Assembly: GCA_018499965.2 (NCBI GenBank)
Contig: JAHBAS020000003.1
Location: 1 to 43,299 of the forward strand
Direction: 5' to 3'
DNA length: 43,299 nucleotides
From: Candidatus Uhrbacteria bacterium
GTDB taxonomy: Bacteria; Patescibacteriota; Patescibacteriia; 2-12-FULL-60-25
Shown: in pieces, positions 1-43,299 of the stretch
Position numbering within the stretch: position 1 is the stretch's first letter
Layout of the letters: every line of letters begins with the position of its first letter
The notes under the pieces: model-generated
Database searches by the model: none
What the model was told of the DNA's origin: nothing
What the model saw: only the letters and a program-made list of their open reading frames with translations
Translations under genes and position numbers: made by a program

Positions 1-19
1 AGATGTGTATAAGAGACAG
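1..19 (+). other. Tn5/Nextera mosaic-end adapter (left)
   Basis: The first 19 bases are exactly AGATGTGTATAAGAGACAG, the hybrid mosaic end used in tagmentation libraries. Its reverse complement closes the window at 43281-43299. This is a library artefact and not part of the genome. Confidence 0.97.
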
Positions 20-646: not shown

Positions 647-675
647 AGAGTAGAGGAACCTGTCATGATTGGCAA
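647..675 (-). promoter_or_regulatory. Sigma70-like promoter of the minus-strand GT4 gene
   Basis: On the minus strand TTGCCA (675-670) is followed after exactly 17 bases by TACTCT (652-647). Transcription would start about 3-4 bases before the ATG at 636, giving a nearly leaderless mRNA. No Shine-Dalgarno sequence is present. Confidence 0.55.
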
Positions 676-680
676 ATAGT

Positions 681-820
681 GGGGAGAGGGTAGTGGGGAG
701 TGGGAGAAGAAATAAAAAAGTTTCAAGCATTGGTGGCTGGCGATTTTTTTCTCTTTTTCTATCACATCCTACACTTTTACCCTCTACCCCCCTCTCCTCT
801 ACCCCCCTACCCTCTACCCA
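681..820. repeat. G-rich block and C-rich direct repeats in the asnB upstream region
   Basis: Bases 681-704 hold four G-runs of 3-4 separated by 3-4 bases, a canonical G-quadruplex pattern on the plus strand. Bases 781-820 are C-rich: a 13-bp unit CCTCTACCCCCCT occurs at 781-793 and again at 796-808, with a partial third copy at 810-819, giving a quadruplex pattern on the minus strand. The two blocks are partly complementary and flank a T-rich stretch. The 191-bp gap 637-827 otherwise holds only the minus-strand promoter. A possible weak -10 (TACACT, 770-775) could serve asnB. Confidence 0.6.
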
Positions 821-827
821 TCTCTAT

Positions 828-2693
828 ATGTGCGGCATCGCAGGCATCGTCACGAAGAACGGCGCTCCTCCAGGCGAGGGCGATGTTCGGTGTATGACGG
901 ATGCGCTTGCGCATCGCGGACCTGACGGGGGTGGCGTGTGGATTGATGCCGGTATTGGACTCGGACATCGCCGTTTAGCGATTATCGATTTAACGGATCG
1001 TGCATCGCAGCCGATGCGTTCGGGAGATGGACGATGGCATGTAACCTATAATGGAGAAATTTATAATTACATTGAGTTGCGGGATATCTGCGAGAAGAAA
1101 GGATCTACCTTTCGTTCGACGTCTGATACGGAAGTCGTCCTTGAAATGTTCCGGCATTTTGGATCGGAATGTGTAAAGCAATTTCGCGGCATGTTTGCAT
1201 TCGCGATATGGGATCGTGATGAACGGAAGCTTTTCTTTGCTCGTGATCGTATTGGAAAGAAGCCGTTTTTTTATCGAACGTTAACGGATGGCTCATTCGC
1301 ATTCGCCTCGGAAATGTGTGCACTCCGCGCGTTGGAACCCGTCACGATCGACGAAGGGGCGATTCGATTGTTTTTTGGATTGCAGTACGTTCCATCTCCC
1401 TATACGGGTTTTACGGAGATCTCGGGTCTTCCGGCTGGATCTTGCGGATGGGTGGATCACGGATCTCTTCGTATCGCTTCGTATCATGATTGGAGTGAAG
1501 TCTCGACGATTCCGCGTGGAGACGTGGTGCAGGATATCCGTGCGCTTCTTGATGAATCCGTCCGTATCCGTCTCCGTTCAGACGTGACGGTCGGTGCTTT
1601 TTTATCTGGAGGTATCGATTCCACGGCCATGGTTGCGATCGCACAGCAGCATCTTGATCGCGGGATGCGGACGTTTACCATGGGGTTCCCGTCCATCTAT
1701 ATGGATGAGCGTGCAGAGGCTCGGAAGACGGCCGCATATTTTGGCACGGACCATCAAGAATTCGAGGCGCGTCCGGAGGATCTCATTCAGCTCGCGGAAT
1801 CTATGATTGCGCTCTATGGCGGTCCGTATGCGGATTCTTCGGCGCTTCCGGTGATGCTCTTGGCCCGTGAAGTGGCTCGTGAGGTTAAGGTCGTGCTTGT
1901 GGGAGATGGGGGAGATGAACTTTTTGGTGGATATCGTCGCTATCAAGCTTTTCAAACCGCGAAAAATCTTTCGCATATTCCCGGCTCCGCCTCGGTCCTT
2001 CCATTGCTCTTGCGCGCCACTGGTGCAGTCCGTCACGACCCTCGTTTCGCGCGTATGGCGGAAACGGTTCGCGCCACGTGTTCGGATGCGAATCGCGCAT
2101 ACGGAGAATTGTTTTGCGGTTCGTACTTCGGAACGAAAGATGCGAATCGCGTCTTGCAGCCGGATTTCCTCGAGCGTCAGGTGAATGCGGATCCGATCGC
2201 GTATATTTGCGCGAAAATGGGAAAGGAAGGCCATCCGCTCGCACGGGCGATGCGTTTTGATTTGGAATCGTATCTTGCGGATGATTTGAATCCGAAAATG
2301 GATCGTGCCACCATGGCGTATGGTCTCGAGGCGCGTGCTCCGTTATTGGATCAGCAGCTCGTGGCTTACGCTCTACGCCTTCCGGTAGAGGACCGTTTGC
2401 GATACGGACAAGGAAAGGTGGCTTTAAAGCGCGCGTTAAAGGGATTGGTTCCGGATGAGGTTCTTCATCGTCCAAAGCGAGGATTCCAAGTCCCGCTCGC
2501 GGAGTGGTTTCGTACGCGTTTGGATTCGTATTGGAAGGATCGTTGTCTGGATCCATCCTCTCCGCTTCACGCTTACGTGAAGCCTGAAGAAGCGGCTCGA
2601 TTATTCGATGAGAACATGCGTGGCACGGATCATGGGAATCGACTATGGATGTTATTGTCGCTTGCCGTGTGGCTGGAGGGCTTGAAAAAATAA
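828..2693 (+). CDS. asnB: Asparagine synthase-like glutamine amidotransferase
   Basis: The 621-residue protein has the two domains of AsnB. The N-terminal class II glutaminase begins Met-Cys-Gly-Ile-Ala-Gly, so Cys2 is the nucleophile after Met removal. It has the HRGPDGGG motif and the YNGEIYNY ammonia-site segment. The synthetase domain carries the ATP PP-loop SGGIDS at residues 260-265. The frame stays open upstream to 669, but start 828 is the only one placing Cys at position 2. AsnB makes asparagine from aspartate, glutamine and ATP. Copies inside polysaccharide clusters are thought to amidate sugar carboxylates, for example uronic acids. It is followed after 9 bases by a UDP-glucuronate decarboxylase, which agrees with a uronate-linked role (inference). 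A second paralogue lies at 12101-13948. Confidence 0.93.
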   Translation: MCGIAGIVTKNGAPPGEGDVRCMTDALAHRGPDGGGVWIDAGIGLGHRRLAIIDLTDRASQPMRSGDGRWHVTYNGEIYNYIELRDICEKKGSTFRSTSDTEVVLEMFRHFGSECVKQFRGMFAFAIWDRDERKLFFARDRIGKKPFFYRTLTDGSFAFASEMCALRALEPVTIDEGAIRLFFGLQYVPSPYTGFTEISGLPAGSCGWVDHGSLRIASYHDWSEVSTIPRGDVVQDIRALLDESVRIRLRSDVTVGAFLSGGIDSTAMVAIAQQHLDRGMRTFTMGFPSIYMDERAEARKTAAYFGTDHQEFEARPEDLIQLAESMIALYGGPYADSSALPVMLLAREVAREVKVVLVGDGGDELFGGYRRYQAFQTAKNLSHIPGSASVLPLLLRATGAVRHDPRFARMAETVRATCSDANRAYGELFCGSYFGTKDANRVLQPDFLERQVNADPIAYICAKMGKEGHPLARAMRFDLESYLADDLNPKMDRATMAYGLEARAPLLDQQLVAYALRLPVEDRLRYGQGKVALKRALKGLVPDEVLHRPKRGFQVPLAEWFRTRLDSYWKDRCLDPSSPLHAYVKPEEAARLFDENMRGTDHGNRLWMLLSLAVWLEGLKK

Positions 2694-12100: not shown

Positions 12101-13948
12101 ATGTGTGGCATCAACGGTTTTTCCTTCCATGATCCAGACGCTTTGCGTCGGATGCATGCCTGCACGCGCCATCGAGGGCCGGATCAAGAGGGTTTTTTCG
12201 AAACGCCTGATATTTCATTGGCGCATAACCGATTGTCGATTATCGATCTCTCCGAAGGCGGCCGCCAACCGATGTATACGCCGGACGGTCGTCATACGAT
12301 CGTCTTTAATGGAGAGATTTATAATTACCGCGAACTTCGCACGCAGCTCGAATCGCTCGGTGAGACGTTCGTATCAGAGAGTGATACGGAAGTCTTGTTG
12401 CGGGCCTGGGCCGTGTGGGGATCCGCGGCTTTACCGAAACTGAACGGGATATACGCGTTTGCGATTTGGGACAATCAGGAAAAGACGTTGTTTCTTGCGC
12501 GTGATCCGATGGGCGTGAAGCCTTTGTATTATTTTTTTGACGGAGAGAAGCGTTTGATCTTCTCTTCAGAGATCAAAGCGATCCTTTCGCATGGCATAAA
12601 ACGTGAAGTCGATCCTGTAGCGTTCAGCTTGTACGCGCGTATGCTCTACGTTCCTGGGGAGCGGACGATGTTTAAGGGGATCAAGAAGTTACCTCAGGGG
12701 TCATTTGCGCAATTTTCGTCTGGATCATTAGAGATGAAATCGTGGTATCAAATTTCGCGAAAGCATCCGGTTGCTTCTTATCAGGAAGCGGTCGCTGGCG
12801 TGCGGAGTCGCGCGGTTGAAGCCGTACGTCGCCAGCTCGTATCCGATCGTCCGCTCGGGGTGTTTTTATCCGGCGGCATTGATTCAACGGCCATCCTGGG
12901 CATGATGCGGAATCTCCAGCCATCTGGGGCGATCAAAACGTTTACCATCGGATATCAATCGAATGTCGATGCTGAGAAGTTCAACGCGGACGCGCGGTTG
13001 GCTGAAAAAACGGCGAAGCACTTTGGAACGGAGCATCATACGTTCACATTGTCGGCACAGGATACGATCGACAACATGGAAAAGGTGGTGTGGCACATGG
13101 ATGAGCCGATCGCGAACCACATCCAGCCGTCGACCTACCTTATTGCGAAATACGCGAAGCCGGAAATCACTGTTGCTTTGGGTGGCGATGGAGGGGATGA
13201 ACTTTTCGCAGGCTATCCCCGATACTGGTATGCACGCATGACAGAACAATTGCATGCGTTTGTACCCGGGATTTTTGCGAAGCTTTTTTTGGACAAGCGT
13301 CTTGCGGAAAAGATGGTGGCGAAAACGCATGCTGAACGATACCGTGCATTTCAGGGGTTGGATGAGGATCGTGTAGCGTTGCTACTATCAAAGCAGAATC
13401 CTGCCATCGCAAGATCGGAGCCATTGAAGAGTATTTTTGACTCGGTATTCGGGTTGATGTCGCAAGGTGGAGATATCGTTACGGACTGCCTTGAGGCTGA
13501 TCTTCGTATGTGGCTTCCGGACGAATCGCTCGTGCGGACGGACAAGCTCTCAATGGCGCATGCGCTTGAAGCGCGCGTGCCGTTGCTTGATCTCGATCTC
13601 GTAGAGTATGCATTCCGCATCCCTTCGAAGTTCAAGCTCAGTACGCGAGAACAGGGGAAGCGCGTATTTATCGATGCGATGCGACCGTATCTCCCTGAGC
13701 ACGTCTTGACTGAAAAGAAACGTGGATGGATGAGTCCTTCCGCAAAGTGGATTCGTGAAGAGCCGATGTTGAGTTGGGTCAGGGAAGTTCTTTCGTCATC
13801 TTACGCACCGGGATCCGAAGCATTTTTGGATTTTGACGGACTGCAAAAAATTCTCGATCAGCATCTTCGCAAAGAAACGTATGGGCTCCATGAGCTTTGG
13901 CTCGCGATCACGTTCCAGATCTGGTATCGCCGGTTTATATCATCTTGA
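12101..13948 (+). CDS. asnB: Asparagine synthase-like glutamine amidotransferase (second copy)
   Basis: The 615-residue AsnB-type protein begins Met-Cys-Gly-Ile-Asn-Gly, so Cys2 is the glutaminase nucleophile. It has RHRGPDQEGFF, NGEIYNYRELR, the PP-loop SGGIDS at residues 257-262 and the conserved TDKLSMAHALEARVPLLD near the C terminus. Family reaction: glutamine-derived ammonia is passed to an ATP-activated carboxylate. It is clearly diverged from the copy at 828-2693, so the two are likely not redundant, and each sits in a different glycosyltransferase operon, suggesting amidation of two sugar acids (inference). The start is set by Cys2. The next gene begins 9 bases after the stop. Confidence 0.92.
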   Translation: MCGINGFSFHDPDALRRMHACTRHRGPDQEGFFETPDISLAHNRLSIIDLSEGGRQPMYTPDGRHTIVFNGEIYNYRELRTQLESLGETFVSESDTEVLLRAWAVWGSAALPKLNGIYAFAIWDNQEKTLFLARDPMGVKPLYYFFDGEKRLIFSSEIKAILSHGIKREVDPVAFSLYARMLYVPGERTMFKGIKKLPQGSFAQFSSGSLEMKSWYQISRKHPVASYQEAVAGVRSRAVEAVRRQLVSDRPLGVFLSGGIDSTAILGMMRNLQPSGAIKTFTIGYQSNVDAEKFNADARLAEKTAKHFGTEHHTFTLSAQDTIDNMEKVVWHMDEPIANHIQPSTYLIAKYAKPEITVALGGDGGDELFAGYPRYWYARMTEQLHAFVPGIFAKLFLDKRLAEKMVAKTHAERYRAFQGLDEDRVALLLSKQNPAIARSEPLKSIFDSVFGLMSQGGDIVTDCLEADLRMWLPDESLVRTDKLSMAHALEARVPLLDLDLVEYAFRIPSKFKLSTREQGKRVFIDAMRPYLPEHVLTEKKRGWMSPSAKWIREEPMLSWVREVLSSSYAPGSEAFLDFDGLQKILDQHLRKETYGLHELWLAITFQIWYRRFISS

Positions 13949-22575: not shown

Positions 22576-23352
22576 ATGAAAGTCGTCATTCTTTGTGGAG
22601 GAAAGGGAACACGTTTGCGTGAAGAAACGGAATATCGTCCGAAGCCGCTCGTTCCGATCGGCGATATGCCGATCTTGTGGCATATCATGAAACTGTATTC
22701 CCATTACGGGTATAAGGATTTTGTGCTTTGCTTGGGGTATCGAGGGGATATGATTCGCCAGTTCTTTTTGAATTTTGAAGAGATGGTGAATGATTTTACC
22801 CTCCACCTTCGGTCGCACCAGTCCCGCGTTGAGTATCACGGAGCTTGCTTGGAGGATTGGCGGATTACGTTTGTGAATACAGGGTTGGAAACGCAGACTG
22901 GTGATCGTATCGCTCAAATTGAGCGGTATGTACAGGGAGAGTCGTTTCATTTGACGTATGGCGATGGCCTTTCGAATGTCGATATCCAAAAGTTAACGGA
23001 GTTCCATCGGCAGAAGGGCAAGATTTTGACGTTGACTGGCGTGTGTCCTGAAAGCGTATTCGGAATCGTCGAGCATGAAGACGGAGTCGTGAAAAGTTTT
23101 AAAGAAAAGCCGCGAACCGACACGACGATTAACGGAGGTTTTTTCGTGTGCGAACCGTCGATTTTCCAATACCTCAACGCTCCGGCGCCGTGCGTTTTTG
23201 AACAGGAGCCGATGCGTAGGCTTGCGGCGGACAATCAGCTCGCTATCCATGAACATAGAGATTTTTGGTATTGTATGGACACGCATAAGCAGTACTTGGA
23301 ATTGAATAAGCGATGGAGCGATGGGGCGGCTCCGTGGCATGTGTGGAAATAA
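22576..23352 (+). CDS. rfbF: Glucose-1-phosphate cytidylyltransferase
   Basis: The 258-residue nucleotidyltransferase starts KVVILCGGKGTRLREET with RPKPLVPIGDMPILWHIM, the CTP-binding and sugar-1-phosphate signature of RfbF/DdhA (the Glu-Glu-Thr after the Gly-rich loop separates it from RmlA and GalU). DFVLCLGYRGDMIRQFF, THLTYGDGLSNVD-type residues near 135 and GGFFVCEPSIF also match. Length matches the family (about 257). It makes CDP-glucose from CTP and glucose-1-phosphate, the first step to CDP-3,6-dideoxyhexoses. It is the first gene of the rfbF-rfbG-rfbH order, which is itself strong support. Confidence 0.94.
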   Translation: MKVVILCGGKGTRLREETEYRPKPLVPIGDMPILWHIMKLYSHYGYKDFVLCLGYRGDMIRQFFLNFEEMVNDFTLHLRSHQSRVEYHGACLEDWRITFVNTGLETQTGDRIAQIERYVQGESFHLTYGDGLSNVDIQKLTEFHRQKGKILTLTGVCPESVFGIVEHEDGVVKSFKEKPRTDTTINGGFFVCEPSIFQYLNAPAPCVFEQEPMRRLAADNQLAIHEHRDFWYCMDTHKQYLELNKRWSDGAAPWHVWK

Positions 23353-23353
23353 T

Positions 23354-24313
23354 ATGAAAAATATCTTCATTACCGGAGGAGCGGGTCTTGTCGGCGGACA
23401 TGTCGTCGAAGAAGCGTTACGCGTGGCGCCTGATGCGCGTATCGTGGTATTAGTGCAAGCGCTTGATCCGAGAAGTTATTTCGTTTCGAGTGGGATGAAG
23501 GATCGCGTTACGCTCGTTTTCGGGGATATTCGTGATGAGCGTACGGTGAGGGATTGTGTGTTCAATTATGAAATAGATACGATTTTTCATTTAGCGGCGC
23601 AGCCGATCGTGAATGTGGCATTGGCGAATCCACGGCAGACCCTGGATACGAATATCATGGGAACCGTGAATGTGCTGGAGGCCGCACGAACCAGCGGGCT
23701 CGTGCAGGCGGTCGTCGTAGCCTCCAGTGATAAGGCGTACGGCAAGGCGAAATTTCAGCCCTATACGGAAGATCATCCTTTGGAGGGGCTGCATCCGTAT
23801 GATGTGTCAAAATCTTGTACGGATCTTATCGCACGAACGTATGCGACGTGTTACGACCTGCCCATCATCGTCACGCGGTTTGGAAATATTTTCGGTCCGG
23901 GCGATTTGAATTTGAACCGATTGGTTCCAGGTGCGATGCGCGCCCTTGCATTGAATGAAGATCTTTTGATTCGAAGTGACGGTACGTTGACGCGTGATTT
24001 CGTGTACGTGAAAGACGTCGCATACGTGTACGTCATGCTGGCGCAGCGCGCAAGGGAATATGGCGGCCAGGCGTTCAATTGTACCTCGGGTATCCATAAG
24101 AGCGTCATTGATATGCTTGATACGATCAGTGTTGCCGTGGGTCAGCCTGTACCGCATCGCATCCTCAACGAAGCGAAGCATGAAATTCCCGAACAGGCGC
24201 TCAGTGATCAAAAATTGCGAAATACGTTTCAGTGGAAGCCGAGTATCGCATTCGATCAGGCGATTCGTGATACGTATGAGTGGTATAAAGCATTATTCTC
24301 TTCCCATCTATGA
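23354..24313 (+). CDS. rfbG: CDP-glucose 4,6-dehydratase-like SDR
   Basis: The 319-residue extended SDR starts MKNIFITGGAGLVGGHVVEE. The frame continues upstream to 23321, but that part overlaps rfbF, and 23354 lies 1 base after its stop. It has FHLAAQPIVNVALANP, VVASSDKAYGKAKFQPYTED and the catalytic Tyr149/Lys153 in HPYDVSK, then SCTDLIARTYATCYDLPI and RFGNIFGPGDLNLNRLVPG, all characteristic of the RfbG/DdhB clade. It is about 35 residues shorter than enteric RfbG. It converts CDP-glucose to CDP-4-keto-6-deoxyglucose. Its position between rfbF and rfbH makes the substrate assignment fairly secure. It overlaps rfbH by ATGA. Confidence 0.92.
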   Translation: MKNIFITGGAGLVGGHVVEEALRVAPDARIVVLVQALDPRSYFVSSGMKDRVTLVFGDIRDERTVRDCVFNYEIDTIFHLAAQPIVNVALANPRQTLDTNIMGTVNVLEAARTSGLVQAVVVASSDKAYGKAKFQPYTEDHPLEGLHPYDVSKSCTDLIARTYATCYDLPIIVTRFGNIFGPGDLNLNRLVPGAMRALALNEDLLIRSDGTLTRDFVYVKDVAYVYVMLAQRAREYGGQAFNCTSGIHKSVIDMLDTISVAVGQPVPHRILNEAKHEIPEQALSDQKLRNTFQWKPSIAFDQAIRDTYEWYKALFSSHL

Positions 24314-25620
24314 TTCCAGAAGATATCGCAGCGCGTATTAAGACATTTGCCGATGAACGGTTTCCGCGAATGCCGTTCGTGCCGGGTGAGACCGCCGTCC
24401 CTGCTTCAGGAAAGGTGTTCGATGAACGTGAATTGCAGGCGGGCGTTGAGGCGGTCTTGGACGGATGGTGGACGGATGGTCATTTTACGAAGGAGTTTGA
24501 ACGACGATTCTGCGGATTGATGAATCGAAAATCCTGCTCCATCGTGAATTCTGGTTCGTCTGCGAATTTAGTGGCCTTCGCGGCGTTGACTTCGCGTAAG
24601 TTGGGTGAACGACGACTGCAACCTGGGGATGAGGTGATTACGGTTGCCGCCGGATTCCCGACGACGATCGCGCCGATCATTCAGCATGGTTGCGTTCCTG
24701 TTTTTGTTGATATTGATCCGGATACGCATAATACGCGTCTTGATTTGATTGAAGCGGCATTCGGTCCGAAGACGCGGGCGGTAATGATTGCGCATACGCT
24801 GGGGAACGCATTCCCTGTAAAAGAGATTGCCGCATGGTGCCGGGAACGGAATTTATGGTTCATTGAGGATACCTGTGACGCCCTTGGCGGGACATATGAT
24901 GGGGAGCCGCTCGGTTCGTTTGGCGATCTTGCAACGTGTAGTTTTTATCCGGCTCATCATCTCACGATGGGGGAGGGCGGAGCTGTTCTTTCTAATGACG
25001 CTCTTTTGACCAAAATCGTCCGTTCATTCCGCGATTGGGGTCGGGATTGTTGGTGCGGAACCGGATGTGACAATACATGTGGTATCCGATATGGCTGGAA
25101 ACTTGGAGAGCTTCCAAAAGGGTATGATCATAAATACGTCTATTCTGAAATTGGATATAACTTGAAAGCGACGGATATCCAGGCTGCTATCGGATTGGCG
25201 CAATTGGACAAGCTTCCTTCGTTTCACGAAGCTCGACGAAAAAATCACGCTTTCCTGTTGGAGCGATTGCAGGTTGTATCGGACGTTTTGCGTCTTCCTG
25301 TTGCTACGAAGGGGAGTGATCCGAGCTGGTTCGGTTTTTTGATGAGTGTTCGCGAGGGTGCTCCGTTTTCACGGGAGGAGTTAACGCAGTATCTGAACGA
25401 TCGAAAAATTGGAACGCGTTTGCTCTTTGCGGGAAATATCCTCAAGCAGCCGTGTTTCACCGGAGCGAATATCCCGCATCGTGTCGTTGGTTCGCTTGAC
25501 CATACGGATGATGCGATGTGCCGTGCATTCTGGATCGGGTGCTATCCTGGGCTTGATGAAGAGCGTCTTCGGTACGCGAGCGATGCGATTATCGAATTTT
25601 GCCGGAAGGATCACGTATGA
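24310..25620 (+). CDS. rfbH: CDP-4-keto-6-deoxyglucose 3-dehydrase (E1), PMP and 2Fe-2S enzyme
   Basis: The 436-residue aminotransferase-fold protein has the PLP lysine replaced by histidine: SFYPAHHLTMGEGG places His216 where E1 of Yersinia has His220. The iron-sulfur ligands follow the exact E1 spacing C-X57-C-X1-C-X7-C at Cys189, Cys247, Cys249 and Cys257. These residues identify the PMP-dependent radical dehydrase RfbH/DdhC rather than an ordinary sugar aminotransferase or ColD. It removes the C3 hydroxyl of CDP-4-keto-6-deoxyglucose and needs electrons from a flavin/2Fe-2S reductase (E3), which is not seen here. The start is ATGA-coupled to rfbG, and the stop is ATGA-coupled to the following SDR. 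Confidence 0.95.
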   Translation: MIPEDIAARIKTFADERFPRMPFVPGETAVPASGKVFDERELQAGVEAVLDGWWTDGHFTKEFERRFCGLMNRKSCSIVNSGSSANLVAFAALTSRKLGERRLQPGDEVITVAAGFPTTIAPIIQHGCVPVFVDIDPDTHNTRLDLIEAAFGPKTRAVMIAHTLGNAFPVKEIAAWCRERNLWFIEDTCDALGGTYDGEPLGSFGDLATCSFYPAHHLTMGEGGAVLSNDALLTKIVRSFRDWGRDCWCGTGCDNTCGIRYGWKLGELPKGYDHKYVYSEIGYNLKATDIQAAIGLAQLDKLPSFHEARRKNHAFLLERLQVVSDVLRLPVATKGSDPSWFGFLMSVREGAPFSREELTQYLNDRKIGTRLLFAGNILKQPCFTGANIPHRVVGSLDHTDDAMCRAFWIGCYPGLDEERLRYASDAIIEFCRKDHV

Positions 25621-35060: not shown

Positions 35061-36401
35061 ATGTCTTTCCCATCCACGCGGACGATCCTAACGAGTTTTG
35101 ATGGAGGAGTGGTATTGCAGGCATCCGTCCAAAAGCCGGATAAGTACCGTTTTTTCGATTCATTGGGCGATGTCGCTTTGATTCCGCGAGGCGCAGGGCT
35201 TTCGTATCCGGCTGCCAGTTTTGGATCGGAGAGTACGTCGGTGGACCTTTCGAATTTTAATCGTCTTTTATCGTATCAAGACGGTCTCTTACATGTGGAG
35301 GCTGGAGCGACCTTGGGTCAGGTCTATAATTTCTTGATTAAGCATGGACGGTATCTTCCGATTCAACCCGGCCATCCTGATATTACGATCGGCGGATGCG
35401 TGGCTGCTGACGTGCATGGAAAAAACCAACTTCGTGACGGCACGTTCATCGAGCTCGTAGAAGCGTTGGAGCTTTTTCATCCCAAGCACGGGGTCGTGAC
35501 GCTTAGTCGTACGGAGCATGCGGATCTTTTTTATCTCACCTGCGGGGGATATGGGCTTACGGGCATCATCCGTACGGTCCATTTGCGAACGAGGGAGCTC
35601 CCATCTCCCGTCGTTGAAATCGTCACGATTCCCGTGTCGTCCGTTGAGGATTTGGAAGCGGTGATAACGGAAAAGGCGCGTCAGTACGACCTCGTATACT
35701 CCTGGCATGATTTTACCCAAAGAGGGAAAGGATTCGGAAAAGGTTTTATCAAGGCTGCGCGATTCGTGCCTTCCTCCGAAGTCGCTTCTTCTTTCGATCA
35801 ACGTGACCGGCATCCGAAGCGGACGTTATACGCTGAGCATCGAGGAATGTATCGATATGCGTTTTTTTCGCAGTGGACAACGCGGCCATTCAATGCCCTT
35901 TTTTACCAGAGTAATATGATCGGACGTTCTGTGCACAAGATGCCCCTCTACGATTTCCTATTCCCGGTCCATAACAAAGAAATTTATTTTAAATTTTTTG
36001 GTCGCAAGGGATTCCATGAGTGTCAGTTCATCATTCCTTTCAAACAGGTTTCTTCGTGGACCGAAGAAGTGAAAGTATATCTTTCGGGTCATTCCATATC
36101 CGTCACCCTGGCCTCGGCAAAGCTCTTTGTCGGTGAACAGCGTTTATTGCGTTTTACGGGTCAGGGGATTTGTATGGCGTTGGATGTCCCACGATCCGCC
36201 CAAGGTCGTCTCTTCGTGGATTTTCTCAATGACCTTGCCACCCGAACCGGCGCTATTCCAAATATTATCAAAGACGCTGAGCTATCCGCTCCTGTCGTAG
36301 CCGCCTGTTATCCGGAGTATGAAGCGTTTCGATCGGCCTTGCGCGCATGGGATCCTGATCGAATGTTCCGTTCTCACTTATCAGAAAGGATCGGGCTATG
36401 A
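35061..36401 (+). CDS. dprE1: FAD-dependent oxidoreductase, DprE1-like
   Basis: The 446-residue VAO-type FAD protein has ALIPRGAGLSYPAASFG (diphosphate-binding loop, with the RGxGxSY pattern of DprE1) and PIQPGHPDITIGGCVAADVH followed by GKN, the DprE1 signature region. YGLTGIIRTVHLRTREL and a C-terminal CYPEYEAFRSALRAWDPDRMF also match. In mycobacteria DprE1 oxidises the 2'-OH of decaprenyl-phospho-ribose. The homologue here would do the same to some polyprenyl-phosphate sugar at the membrane. It overlaps its SDR partner by ATGA (36398-36401), the same pairing as dprE1-dprE2. The substrate could be ribose or a hexose from the upstream GT2. No UbiA-type phosphoribosyltransferase is seen. Confidence 0.82.
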   Translation: MSFPSTRTILTSFDGGVVLQASVQKPDKYRFFDSLGDVALIPRGAGLSYPAASFGSESTSVDLSNFNRLLSYQDGLLHVEAGATLGQVYNFLIKHGRYLPIQPGHPDITIGGCVAADVHGKNQLRDGTFIELVEALELFHPKHGVVTLSRTEHADLFYLTCGGYGLTGIIRTVHLRTRELPSPVVEIVTIPVSSVEDLEAVITEKARQYDLVYSWHDFTQRGKGFGKGFIKAARFVPSSEVASSFDQRDRHPKRTLYAEHRGMYRYAFFSQWTTRPFNALFYQSNMIGRSVHKMPLYDFLFPVHNKEIYFKFFGRKGFHECQFIIPFKQVSSWTEEVKVYLSGHSISVTLASAKLFVGEQRLLRFTGQGICMALDVPRSAQGRLFVDFLNDLATRTGAIPNIIKDAELSAPVVAACYPEYEAFRSALRAWDPDRMFRSHLSERIGL

Positions 36402-37132
36402 AATTTTTAATCATTGGTGCATCTTCCGGTCTCGGGCGTTCATTGTCCGAGGCTTTGGCTGCCTCCGGACATGATCTCGTATTGGTAGCGAGTGACGAAA
36501 GGGATTTGTCTGTTCAATGCGCGGATTTGTCTTTGCGATACCATGGAATGATCGTGCCTGTGGCATGCCACATCGATCCACGGAATCAATGGCTTGATGC
36601 ATTCAAAGACCGGATGTCTATGATGACTGATCTAGATGGAATCTTTTTTCCACTAGGCTGGTCAAGCGATCGAGATAGCGTTGCGCTTGATTCGGAACAT
36701 GTCGACGCTTTGGTCGAATCGAATTTTTCAGCCATCGTGAAGATCGTGTCTTTGTTTTTGAATCACTTTCTTGCAAGGGGTAGAGGATCCATCGTCGGAT
36801 TCGGATCAGTCGCTTCTCTGCGAGGACGTTCGAATAACGTCGTATATGCCGCTGCCAAGCGAGCGCTTTCCAGTTATTTCGAGAGTCTGCGACACGCGCT
36901 TGCGAATACTCAGATTCGCGTGCAGTTCTATCAACTCGGTTACGTGGATACGCCGCGAAACTTCGGGAAGCGCTTCTTATTTCCTCAGGGGGATCCTAAG
37001 ATAGCGGCAAAGCGAGTGATGAAGAATCTCCATAGGGATTTTGGTCGCGTATTTTTTCCGAGATTTTGGTTTATCATTCAATACGTCGTTCGGTGGTTGC
37101 CCTGGCGTATTTTTAAACGATTGAATTTTTAA
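36398..37132 (+). CDS. dprE2: Short-chain dehydrogenase, DprE2-like
   Basis: The 244-residue classical SDR has the cofactor loop FLIIGASSGLGRSLSEAL, a Ser in VGFGSVASLRGRS and the catalytic Tyr150/Lys154 in VVYAAAKRALSSYFESLR. RVQFYQLGYVDTPRNF and a hydrophobic, basic C terminus (IIQYVVRWLPWRIFKRLNF) fit the membrane-associated DprE2 group. With the upstream FAD enzyme it would reduce a 2-keto lipid-linked sugar, completing a C2 epimerisation, for example ribose to arabinose in mycobacteria. It is ATGA-coupled to the DprE1-like gene. Function by gene pair and family; the sugar is not known. Confidence 0.82.
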   Translation: MKFLIIGASSGLGRSLSEALAASGHDLVLVASDERDLSVQCADLSLRYHGMIVPVACHIDPRNQWLDAFKDRMSMMTDLDGIFFPLGWSSDRDSVALDSEHVDALVESNFSAIVKIVSLFLNHFLARGRGSIVGFGSVASLRGRSNNVVYAAAKRALSSYFESLRHALANTQIRVQFYQLGYVDTPRNFGKRFLFPQGDPKIAAKRVMKNLHRDFGRVFFPRFWFIIQYVVRWLPWRIFKRLNF

Positions 37133-40995: not shown

Positions 40996-41030
40996 ATCAT
41001 GTATTAGGGTATTTTCTCTTTTTTATACTC

Positions 41031-41059
41031 TTGTACTATTTTTTGTATTGGAGTACGAT
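41031..41059 (+). promoter_or_regulatory. Promoter with overlapping dyad before the HTH-dehydrogenase gene
   Basis: TTGTAC (41031-41036), 17 bases, then TACGAT (41054-41059). The start point is near 41066, giving a 23-base leader. An inverted repeat GTACT (41033-41037) / AGTAC (41052-41056) overlaps both boxes, a layout fit for autoregulation by the HTH protein encoded just downstream. The 93-bp gap is strongly T-rich and holds no gene. Confidence 0.5.
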
Positions 41060-41088: not shown

Positions 41089-42177
41089 ATGCAGCAAATC
41101 GCTCCAAAATTGCGTGAACTTCGTCAGCAAAAGGAGATGACGCAGAATACTCTCGCTGAACGCTCAGGGGTTTCTTCGGCATTTATCTACAAGCTTGAGG
41201 CTGGAGAGTATGACACGCTTTCCATTGATACGTGTCGGCAATTGGCAAAAGGATTTGGCATTTCACTTCGTCAATTTTTGGAAGTGACGGGTATGTTGGA
41301 CGATGCCGAGATTGCATCCGAAGCGAGTGGGCCCAAAGAGGTGGTATATAGCGATATCGCTATCGTTGGTGCTGGAATGGTCGGCGGTGCATTGGATCGT
41401 TACTTTAAGACGAAAGGTATTGAAGTAGGGATTTTTGATCCGCCAAAGGGGCATCATGATATCGGCGTTCTTGAACACGCGGACACGATTTTCATCGCCG
41501 TGCCAACGCCGTACTATTTTGAGACGGGATTTGACGACACGTATATTCGCGCGGCGTTAAACACGATTCCGGTTCCAGGAAAGACGGTTGTATTGAAATC
41601 GACGATTCAGCCGGGAACGACGGAGCGATTGCAGGCGCTGTATCCGCAGCATCGCATTCTTTTCAATCCGGAGTTTTTAACGGAGACGACGGTCGATCAT
41701 GACATGCAGTTTCCAACGCGTCAGATCGTCGGATACACTCCGGAGAGCCGCTGTGATGCGGAAAAGGTGATGGGGTTGCTGCCTCGTGCGCCGTTTGAAA
41801 AGATTACGCATGCGAAGGTTTCGGAACTCGTGAAGTATTTCGGCAATGCGTTCTATGCGTTGAAGGTCACGTACGCGAACCAAATGTACGACGTCTGTTC
41901 CGCGTTAGGCGTTGATTACGATCATGTCAAAGAATGCGGGCAGGCTGAGCCGTGGGTTGGAAAGAATCACCTTGATATTTTTCACAAAGGATATCGTGGA
42001 TACGGCGGGAAGTGTCTTCCGAAGGACACGCGTAGCATTATTCAGCTCGCAGAATCTCTCGGTGTCGATCTTTCGGTCTTAAAGGCTGCGGAGGCGTATA
42101 ATATGGAATTGCAGAAGAAGCAGGGGATTGATGTGCGTTGGGTGGAAGGATCACCGGAGAAAGGGAATAGTCATTAA
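41089..42177 (+). CDS. XRE-type HTH domain fused to a UDP-glucose/ManNAc dehydrogenase-like domain
   Basis: The 362-residue single frame has a Cro/C1 HTH at residues 5-65 (KLRELRQQKEMTQNTLAERS, SSAFIYKLEAGEYDTLSIDT). After a short linker comes a nucleotide-sugar dehydrogenase: Rossmann loop IAIVGAGMVGG (90-100), IFIAVPTPYY, LFNPEFLTETT, the Lys/Asn segment SELVKYFGNAFYALKV and the catalytic Cys309 in GYGGKCLPKD. Only 53 residues follow Cys309, so the usual C-terminal UDP-sugar-binding domain is absent. The family oxidises NDP-hexoses to NDP-uronic acids with NAD. Here the enzyme domain may sense NAD(H) or a nucleotide-sugar for a DNA-binding regulator, or be a bifunctional enzyme-repressor (inference). 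No internal stop or alternative ATG separates the two parts. Confidence 0.88.
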   Translation: MQQIAPKLRELRQQKEMTQNTLAERSGVSSAFIYKLEAGEYDTLSIDTCRQLAKGFGISLRQFLEVTGMLDDAEIASEASGPKEVVYSDIAIVGAGMVGGALDRYFKTKGIEVGIFDPPKGHHDIGVLEHADTIFIAVPTPYYFETGFDDTYIRAALNTIPVPGKTVVLKSTIQPGTTERLQALYPQHRILFNPEFLTETTVDHDMQFPTRQIVGYTPESRCDAEKVMGLLPRAPFEKITHAKVSELVKYFGNAFYALKVTYANQMYDVCSALGVDYDHVKECGQAEPWVGKNHLDIFHKGYRGYGGKCLPKDTRSIIQLAESLGVDLSVLKAAEAYNMELQKKQGIDVRWVEGSPEKGNSH

Positions 42178-42192
42178 TAACGAATACATTAT

Positions 42193-43104
42193 ATGAAATA
42201 CATTGTTACCGGCGGAGCCGGATTCATCGGATCGACGCTCGCGAAGCGCATGATTCGTGACGGGCATGAAGTCGTGATCATTGATAACTTTTCAACGGGC
42301 TTGCGTGAGCGCGTCCCTGAGGGTGCGACGGTCGTTGAATGGGATTTGACCAGCGAAGACATCCAGACGCTTGCTTCGCATATGCAAGGCGCGGATGGCG
42401 TTTTCCATTTTGCCGCATTGCCTCGTGTGCCTTTTTCGATCGCCGAGCCGATCATTTCATCCAAGCATAATGTTTTCGGAACCTTGCATACGCTTGTCGC
42501 GGCTCGTGACGCCGGGGTGCGTCGCGTGGTGTACTCGGCTTCGTCTTCTGCGTATGGGAATCAACCGGTATTGCCGCAGCACCCAGACATGAAGCCACAA
42601 CCACTGAGTCCGTATGCGCTTCAAAAGTTAATGGGCGAACATTTTTGTTCGCAGTTCTACGCGTTGTACGGATTGGAAACGGTTTCTCTTCGTTATTTTA
42701 ACGTGTATGGACCAGGGATGGCTGAGGATGGAGCGTATGCGCCTGTTTTTGCCATCTTTAAGCGTCAGTACTTGGCAAAAGAGCCTTTGACGATCTGTGG
42801 AGATGGCTCGCAGACGCGATCGTTTTGCCATGTCGATGACGTGGTCGAAGCGAATGTCAAAGCGATGATGTCCGAGAAGGCCGGAAAGGGGGAAGTGTTA
42901 AACGTGAGCGGGCCGACGAGCGTGAGCATTAAAGATATCGCAGATCGTTTTAATCATCCGATCACGTATCTTGATCCTCGACCGGGCGATGTTCCGCACT
43001 CGCTCGGAGATATCGAGCGTACAAAAGAACTCATCGATTGGGAGCCGAAGATCCATTTTGATCATGGATTTGAAGCGCTTTTAAAACATTGGGGCGTACG
43101 GTAG
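42193..43104 (+). CDS. galE: NAD-dependent NDP-sugar 4-epimerase (GalE/WbpP-like)
   Basis: The 303-residue extended SDR starts [20 protein letters not shown] and has DNFSTG, FHFAALPRVPFSIAEP (the WbpP/UDP-GlcNAc epimerase pattern), YSASSSAYGNQP and the catalytic Tyr141/Lys145 in SPYALQK, then RYFNVYGPGM and FCHVDDVVEA. It interconverts UDP-Glc/UDP-Gal or UDP-GlcNAc/UDP-GalNAc (or the uronic acids). The SIxxP loop favours the N-acetyl or uronic forms, but this is not decisive. It lies 15 bases after the HTH-dehydrogenase, the same neighbours as Ugd/WbpO and epimerase pairs elsewhere. Confidence 0.88.
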   Translation: MKYIVTGGAGFIGSTLAKRMIRDGHEVVIIDNFSTGLRERVPEGATVVEWDLTSEDIQTLASHMQGADGVFHFAALPRVPFSIAEPIISSKHNVFGTLHTLVAARDAGVRRVVYSASSSAYGNQPVLPQHPDMKPQPLSPYALQKLMGEHFCSQFYALYGLETVSLRYFNVYGPGMAEDGAYAPVFAIFKRQYLAKEPLTICGDGSQTRSFCHVDDVVEANVKAMMSEKAGKGEVLNVSGPTSVSIKDIADRFNHPITYLDPRPGDVPHSLGDIERTKELIDWEPKIHFDHGFEALLKHWGVR

Positions 43105-43280: not shown

Positions 43281-43299
43281 CTGTCTCTTATACACATCT
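43281..43299 (-). other. Tn5/Nextera mosaic-end adapter (right)
   Basis: The last 19 bases are CTGTCTCTTATACACATCT, the exact reverse complement of bases 1-19. Artefact of tagmentation. Confidence 0.97.

Follow-up and report, generated by a model that had tools for sequence, protein, structure and literature searches.

An XRE-type DNA-binding domain fused to a short nucleotide-sugar dehydrogenase in Candidatus Uhrbacteria: a putative self-regulating enzyme

Can an enzyme of sugar-nucleotide metabolism that carries its own DNA-binding domain control the gene that encodes it? This question is raised by one open frame of 362 aa at 41089-42177 (+ strand) in the window, which is the whole stretch of 43,299 nucleotides from Candidatus Uhrbacteria analyzed in the present study. 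The window is contig C10 of a 1.11-Mb genome in 46 contigs, and the whole contig is a surface-polysaccharide cluster from one end to the other.

Trigger enzymes with a DNA-binding part are known: E. coli PutA, BirA, and NadR have been experimentally proven to be active enzymes that repress genes of their own pathways. The route from an enzyme to a transcription regulator is thought to consist of the gain of a DNA-binding domain followed by the loss of activity. Q1, a bifunctional XRE-enzyme intermediate, was reportedly made in the laboratory for want of a natural example. It joins the HTH of BzdR to E. coli shikimate kinase I and retains both DNA binding and catalysis (PMC3602430). BzdR and BoxR consist of an N-terminal XRE domain, a linker, and a shikimate-kinase-like domain, and repress via palindromic operators; the enzyme domain of BzdR has lost its activity and senses benzoyl-CoA, and the linker transmits the signal (PMC3602430). 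In vitro, Q1 left DNA with its substrate, for which the linker was required (PMC3602430, Durante-Rodriguez et al.). Q1 was not inducible in vivo, with catalysis consuming the loaded state, and only the dead version, Q2, was inducible (PMC3602430).

A genuine fusion of two constrained domains

A sequence-only reading of the locus had claimed that an XRE/Cro HTH and a UGD-like domain share one frame, and Pfam searches with curated cut-offs bore this out. HTH_3 (PF01381) matched residues 8-62 (E 1e-13; 51.5 bits against a cut-off of 23), UDPG_MGDP_dh_N (PF03721) residues 128-221 (E 7e-16; 58.9 bits, cut-off 27), and UDPG_MGDP_dh (PF00984) residues 244-338 (E 1e-21; 77 bits, cut-off 25.4). We assigned residues 1-69 (41089-41295, + strand) to the XRE/Cro-type HTH domain on the basis of the HTH_3 match, constraint, and modelled helices, and residues 70-87 (41296-41349, +) to a linker marked by low identity between fused proteins and low pLDDT. 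Residues 88-345 (41350-42123, +) form a short nucleotide-sugar dehydrogenase with a Rossmann and a central domain, as indicated by PF03721 and PF00984. The UDP-binding domain UDPG_MGDP_dh_C (PF03720) was not matched in the protein by Pfam, which agrees with its earlier reported absence, and approximately 15 residues are left past residue 345. The Rossmann part is also shortened: residues 90-117 resemble the first beta-alpha-beta of the fold (IAIVGAGMVGG ... FDP), the next 30-40 residues of the usual NAD domain are gone, and the PF03721 match begins at profile position 74. The protein missed the curated cut-off of TIGR03026 (NCBIfam), which presupposes a full-length protein (148.8 vs. 189.8 bits), and only profile positions 73-297 of 413 were aligned. 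PRK08154, the model of the BzdR group, matched the HTH alone and weakly (E 2e-8; 33.7 bits, cut-off 204).

A genome search for the HTH-UGD architecture identified the same fusion in a second MAG of the genus, Ca. Uhrbacteria nzgw360 (G002; JAHFIK010000021.1), with 80% identity over residues 1-360; the architecture recurs in Bacillota plasmids, as described below. Between the two Uhrbacteria genomes, the HTH (residues 1-69) shows 84% identity, a dN/dS of 0.07, and a dS of about 1.3, and the dehydrogenase (residues 88-345) a dN/dS of 0.052 and a dS of about 2.3. The linker (residues 70-87) is just 28% identical, and the putative recognition region (residues 18-42) is identical at 23 of its 25 positions. 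Since synonymous sites are nearly saturated but dN/dS is low in both domains, an assembly join and a decaying fusion can both be dismissed; selection on both domains together with a free linker is the pattern of a working two-domain protein. We conclude from these comparisons that the HTH-dehydrogenase fusion is genuine.

Because the window is a MAG contig that ends in sequencing adapter on both sides, one might suspect an artefact: two genes joined in assembly, by a frameshift, or by a recent neutral fusion event. However, the independently assembled second MAG contains the same fusion, with synonymous sites close to saturation while both domains are strongly constrained, and we regard an artefact as extremely improbable. 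The frameshift or assembly join that the earlier reading had named as a danger is ruled out by this MAG, in which the fusion, the frame, and the dyad described below are the same. The other danger it had named, an HTH that is always separate in orthologues, is contradicted by one genus-mate, although most dehydrogenase orthologues are without an HTH. The adapter itself (window 1-19 and 43281-43299; AGATGTGTATAAGAGACAG / CTGTCTCTTATACACATCT) is untrimmed Nextera transposase sequence and not biology.

A tree built from 38 dehydrogenase domains placed both fused proteins in one clade (SH-aLRT 100), separate from the HTH-less versions of two other genus members, and thus the HTH was gained once in the Uhrbacteria lineage. 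The branch length of this clade was comparable to those of unfused dehydrogenases. A whole-protein search of 381 genomes of the class and 380 of the phylum did not reveal a wider spread of the Uhrbacteria fusion; the other matches begin at the Rossmann domain, and no HTH was found in the longer open frames inspected (L029, L052, L053, and L055).

Among stand-alone proteins, the HTH is closest to one in genome G007 (61%), the gene of which has a Bro-N-like gene, a metallopeptidase-like gene, and restriction-modification-like genes as neighbors. The loci of the nearest HTH relatives (L035 4149-6073 and L036 3143-5048) adjoin a Bro-N-like gene, an M78-like metallopeptidase gene, and R-M-type DNA-methylase and helicase genes, a defence-like island that is conserved in two genera.

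The short dehydrogenase and its epimerase partner

The dehydrogenase had been called truncated, a description that our searches did not sustain. A short dehydrogenase of 260-300 aa that begins at the Rossmann strand was found by whole-genome search in 24 of 41 genomes of the family, in 89 of 381 genomes of the class (about a quarter of the sampled Paceibacteria genomes), and in 31 of 380 genomes of the phylum. Among viral contigs, 234 stretches encode relatives, and those examined are likewise short. Judging from these sequences, the form without a UDP-binding domain is the normal form of the family, and the Uhrbacteria enzyme has no C-terminal domain because it is a member of this family. Phage UGD-like proteins (Campylobacter phage F379, 256 aa; Microbacterium phage Fireman, 262 aa) have the same short architecture, but, unlike the Uhrbacteria fusion, are without an HTH. 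In the viral loci L060-L139, short NDP-sugar dehydrogenases are common and several have an SDR epimerase gene nearby; phages or their hosts possess the same pair of enzymes.

Lys249, Asn253, Cys309, Lys312, and Asp313 are invariant in all 45 aligned dehydrogenases. Cys309 (codon 42013-42015, +), which was expected to be the retained catalytic residue, lines up with the cysteine of GGSCFPKD in solved UGDs (4a7p, 3vtf, and 2y0e). We also considered a degenerate, truncated enzyme, but the family is normally short and its catalytic set does not vary, which rules this reading out. A first AlphaFold2 model built from a 3-sequence alignment was poor (pLDDT 62). A 45-row alignment that included viral short dehydrogenases gave a mean pLDDT of 89, with 94-99 across most of the enzyme, values under 50 at linker residues 75-80, and five HTH helices (residues 4-14, 19-26, 30-37, 46-56, and 60-67). 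Residues 88-362 of this model matched S. pyogenes UGD 1dli (Z 25.5; 259 residues, 2.3 A) and C. jejuni Cj1441 (Z 25.5). The rows of this structure-library comparison were taken up by the enzyme domain, with the HTH part scarcely covered. The residues and the modelled fold predict that the fusion protein is catalytically active.

The 4-epimerase that the earlier reading had placed next to the fusion is an SDR-family sugar 4-epimerase (TviC/GalE-like, 303 aa) at 42193-43104 (+; PF01370, E 3e-56), which begins 15 bases past the stop codon of the fusion gene. Its nearest NCBIfam models are TviC, the closest, and GalE, both below the cut-off. In the family, 19 of 23 readable loci have an SDR 4-epimerase as the next gene, and one of its genera, g19, encodes the short dehydrogenase and the 4-epimerase as a single polypeptide of about 590-600 aa (L012 1465-3261; L016 1486-3252). 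This adjacency and the g19 fusion indicate that the dehydrogenase and the epimerase are a functional pair, the products of which are presumably a uronic acid sugar nucleotide and its C4 epimer. In genome G008 (L010 1432-3198), two short dehydrogenases lie in tandem ahead of one epimerase.

Other parts of the polysaccharide cluster were also noted. Two asparagine-synthase-type amidotransferases are encoded within it (window 669-2693 and 12101-13948), which may possibly serve uronic acid sugar amidation. Genes for a glucose-1-phosphate cytidylyltransferase, a CDP-glucose 4,6-dehydratase-like protein, and RfbH are consecutive at 22576-25620 and correspond to a CDP-3,6-dideoxyhexose pathway in a Patescibacterium. 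At 35061-37132, a DprE1-like FAD oxidase gene (a weak match, 182 vs. a cut-off of 500 bits) is followed by an overlapping SDR gene, a layout that we take to be like that of the DprE1/DprE2 epimerase pair of mycobacterial arabinan synthesis.

The dehydrogenase domain may be a retired enzyme that is purely a ligand sensor, similar to the shikimate-kinase domain of BzdR. BzdR has the same layout of an XRE domain and an enzyme-derived domain, the latter being inactive, and a canonical UGD of 434 aa is encoded elsewhere in the source genome on contig C15. However, the full catalytic set is retained, the enzyme domain has evolved with the low dN/dS and ordinary branch length given above, and the partner epimerase is still adjacent. 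Moreover, the fusion is the sole short dehydrogenase found in each of the two fused genomes, and, with the usual epimerase directly after it, the enzyme role is probably still needed. We consider a retired enzyme to be unlikely.

The upstream dyad and control of the operon

The promoter of the fusion gene had been reported to contain a fitting dyad at 41031-41059. The dyad is present, but those coordinates are of an overlapping promoter-like sequence, TTGTAC-N17-TACGAT (41031-41059, +), whereas the dyad itself, TACTCTTGTAC-N8-GTATTGGAGTA, lies at 41026-41055. The promoter-like sequence, which we treat as a candidate, was read from the upstream alignment of the two genomes, and its counterpart in the second fused genome is TTGTAC-N17-TACTAT. 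The upstream regions of the two fused genes have diverged except for TACTCTTGTAC, an 8-base spacer of differing sequence, and GTATTGSAGTA; the half-sites are conserved at 11/11 and 10/11 positions. Between the arms, 8 of 11 positions conform to an inverted repeat, and the probability that two random 11-mers pair as well is about 0.001-0.007 by base composition, before the choice of register.

The pattern TACTNNNNTAC-N8-GTANNNNAGTA matched once in each fused genome, directly 5' of the fusion gene, and not in 32 other genomes. With two mismatches allowed, each fused genome still contained one match, against 10 and 8 for a reversed-pattern control. In either fused genome alone, the dyad was no better than shuffled sequence, and its weight comes from its being conserved and single-copy in two genomes rather than from one-genome statistics. 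Because its arms are interrupted, the dyad escaped a repeat finder set to 6-base arms in both Uhrbacteria genomes. A consensus promoter scan, which gave fewer matches than in shuffles, did not list TTGTAC-N17-TACGAT, and an Rfam scan detected no RNA element. The promoter of the stand-alone HTH gene in G007 contains one similar half-site, TACTTTGGTAC; no such half-site was found in the promoters of six more distant stand-alone HTH relatives. Comparison of the two upstream regions suggests that promoter conservation accounts for part but not all of the conserved dyad bases, and supports the dyad as a putative operator bound by the HTH. Since the candidate promoter coincides with the dyad, a bound protein would block RNA polymerase.

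The HTH may act elsewhere, on other target genes, or may be kept for oligomerization or protein contact instead of DNA binding. XRE domains are capable of other roles, and further sites may be missing because the MAGs are incomplete. However, the sole matching site per genome is at the gene itself even at the relaxed threshold, and the recognition region is nearly identical between the two fused proteins. Therefore, we regard a role elsewhere as very improbable.

We consider it fairly probable that a working short NDP-sugar dehydrogenase with an acquired XRE domain controls its own dehydrogenase and 4-epimerase operon, tuned by occupancy with NAD and NDP-sugar. The one-frame fusion, purifying selection on both domains, the retained catalytic residues, and the promoter dyad make the previously suggested self-regulating, trigger-type enzyme the best reading, and the fusion enzyme probably regulates its own production. 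The protein would form dimers held via the long helix of the central domain, and the dimer would set two HTHs on the dyad, overlapping the promoter and presumably repressing rather than activating transcription. The binding of NAD and NDP-sugar would close the Rossmann domain onto the central domain. With the HTH attached to the N terminus of the Rossmann domain, the HTH pair would fit DNA differently depending on occupancy, so that the protein would let go of DNA or bind it more tightly, and expression would track the level of substrate or product. We infer this ligand dependence by analogy, from domain closure in UGDs and from Q1 and BzdR. This reading draws on just two genomes in the Uhrbacteria lineage, the conserved blocks are partly the possible promoter and may be kept for its sake, and the model leaves the placement of the HTH against the enzyme uncertain.

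Alternatively, the HTH may bind DNA constitutively, giving fixed negative feedback on the amount of protein without a ligand effect. A long linker that is unconstrained and disordered in the model fits two independent domains better than tight allosteric coupling, and the Q1 chimera with its active enzyme was not inducible in vivo. However, the linker transmits the signal in BzdR-type proteins, and simple feedback needs no fusion, although a fusion is an easy route to it. We regard constitutive binding as rather unlikely. Since catalysis prevented the induction of Q1 in vivo, retained activity may make for poor sensing; a live enzyme-repressor may instead report an imbalance, such as substrate without NAD or a build-up of product, or serve as fixed feedback.

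Plasmid fusions in Bacillota and known systems

A translated plasmid search identified a 492-aa protein with HTH_3, PF03721, PF00984, and PF03720 (Pfam) on a plasmid of Butyrivibrio fibrisolvens D1 (L148 2953-4431; NZ_CP146964.1 219678-221156). Relatives on Enterococcus faecalis and E. hirae plasmids (L149 4001-5479; L150 4001-5485) are 75-76% identical over their full length. Among these Bacillota fusions, identity is 60% in the HTH, 20% in the linker, and 80% in the enzyme. The next-closest plasmid relatives match only from about residue 72-85 on, i.e., without the HTH. Similar to the Uhrbacteria protein, the Butyrivibrio and Enterococcus fusions have an N-terminal XRE HTH, an ill-conserved linker, PF03721 and PF00984, and palindromes just upstream. 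In contrast to it, they contain a three-domain UGD with PF03720 and have a different operator sequence. Since their enzyme part is full length and belongs to another branch of the family, they arose by a separate fusion event.

Of the three exact copies of TGTTAT-N5-ATAACA that the 242.7-kb Butyrivibrio plasmid contains, two lie upstream of the fusion gene, no more than 132 bases from its start codon. The best match in the E. hirae plasmid (1 mismatch) is at the same upstream place, as is a 2-mismatch site in E. faecalis, which is weak taken alone. Thus, by sequence, an HTH, a UGD, and a palindrome at the gene itself have apparently come together twice.

The Uhrbacteria fusion resembles BzdR and BoxR in its N-terminal XRE domain, linker, and C-terminal domain of metabolic-enzyme origin. 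It differs from them in enzyme family, in having all catalytic residues where the enzyme domain of BzdR is dead, and in its presumed target, its own operon. By this analogy, it is closer to Q1, which also joins an XRE HTH to an intact enzyme in a single chain, than to natural BzdR with its dead kinase domain. Q1 is man-made and contains another enzyme, whereas the proposed intermediate would have a natural example in the Uhrbacteria protein. In PutA, BirA, and NadR, as in the proposed function of the fusion, catalysis and repression of the enzyme's own pathway genes are combined in one protein; however, these three have other folds and DNA-binding domains and are experimentally proven. While trigger enzymes and XRE-enzyme fusions are already known, the UGD family as the enzyme part is apparently unpublished, as no HTH-UGD fusion was found in the open-access papers searched.

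It is conceivable, and we propose it tentatively, that the gain of an XRE domain has, on at least two occasions (Patescibacteria and Bacillota), made a catalytically active NDP-sugar dehydrogenase into a one-component sensor for its own substrate. These proteins would then represent a natural, still active intermediate between enzyme and repressor and a transcription switch for surface polysaccharide that responds directly to NDP-sugar and NAD. Database annotation conceals the HTH of the Bacillota fusions, which are named merely "nucleotide sugar dehydrogenase" (e.g., WP_073386844.1). The present study provides candidate natural bifunctional XRE-enzymes in two unrelated lineages, each with a presumed operator beside its gene. 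If our reading is true, the route from enzyme to regulator would become directly testable, a repressor that senses sugar nucleotides would be added to those known, and a small Patescibacteria genome would regulate a step of surface-polysaccharide synthesis with one gene.
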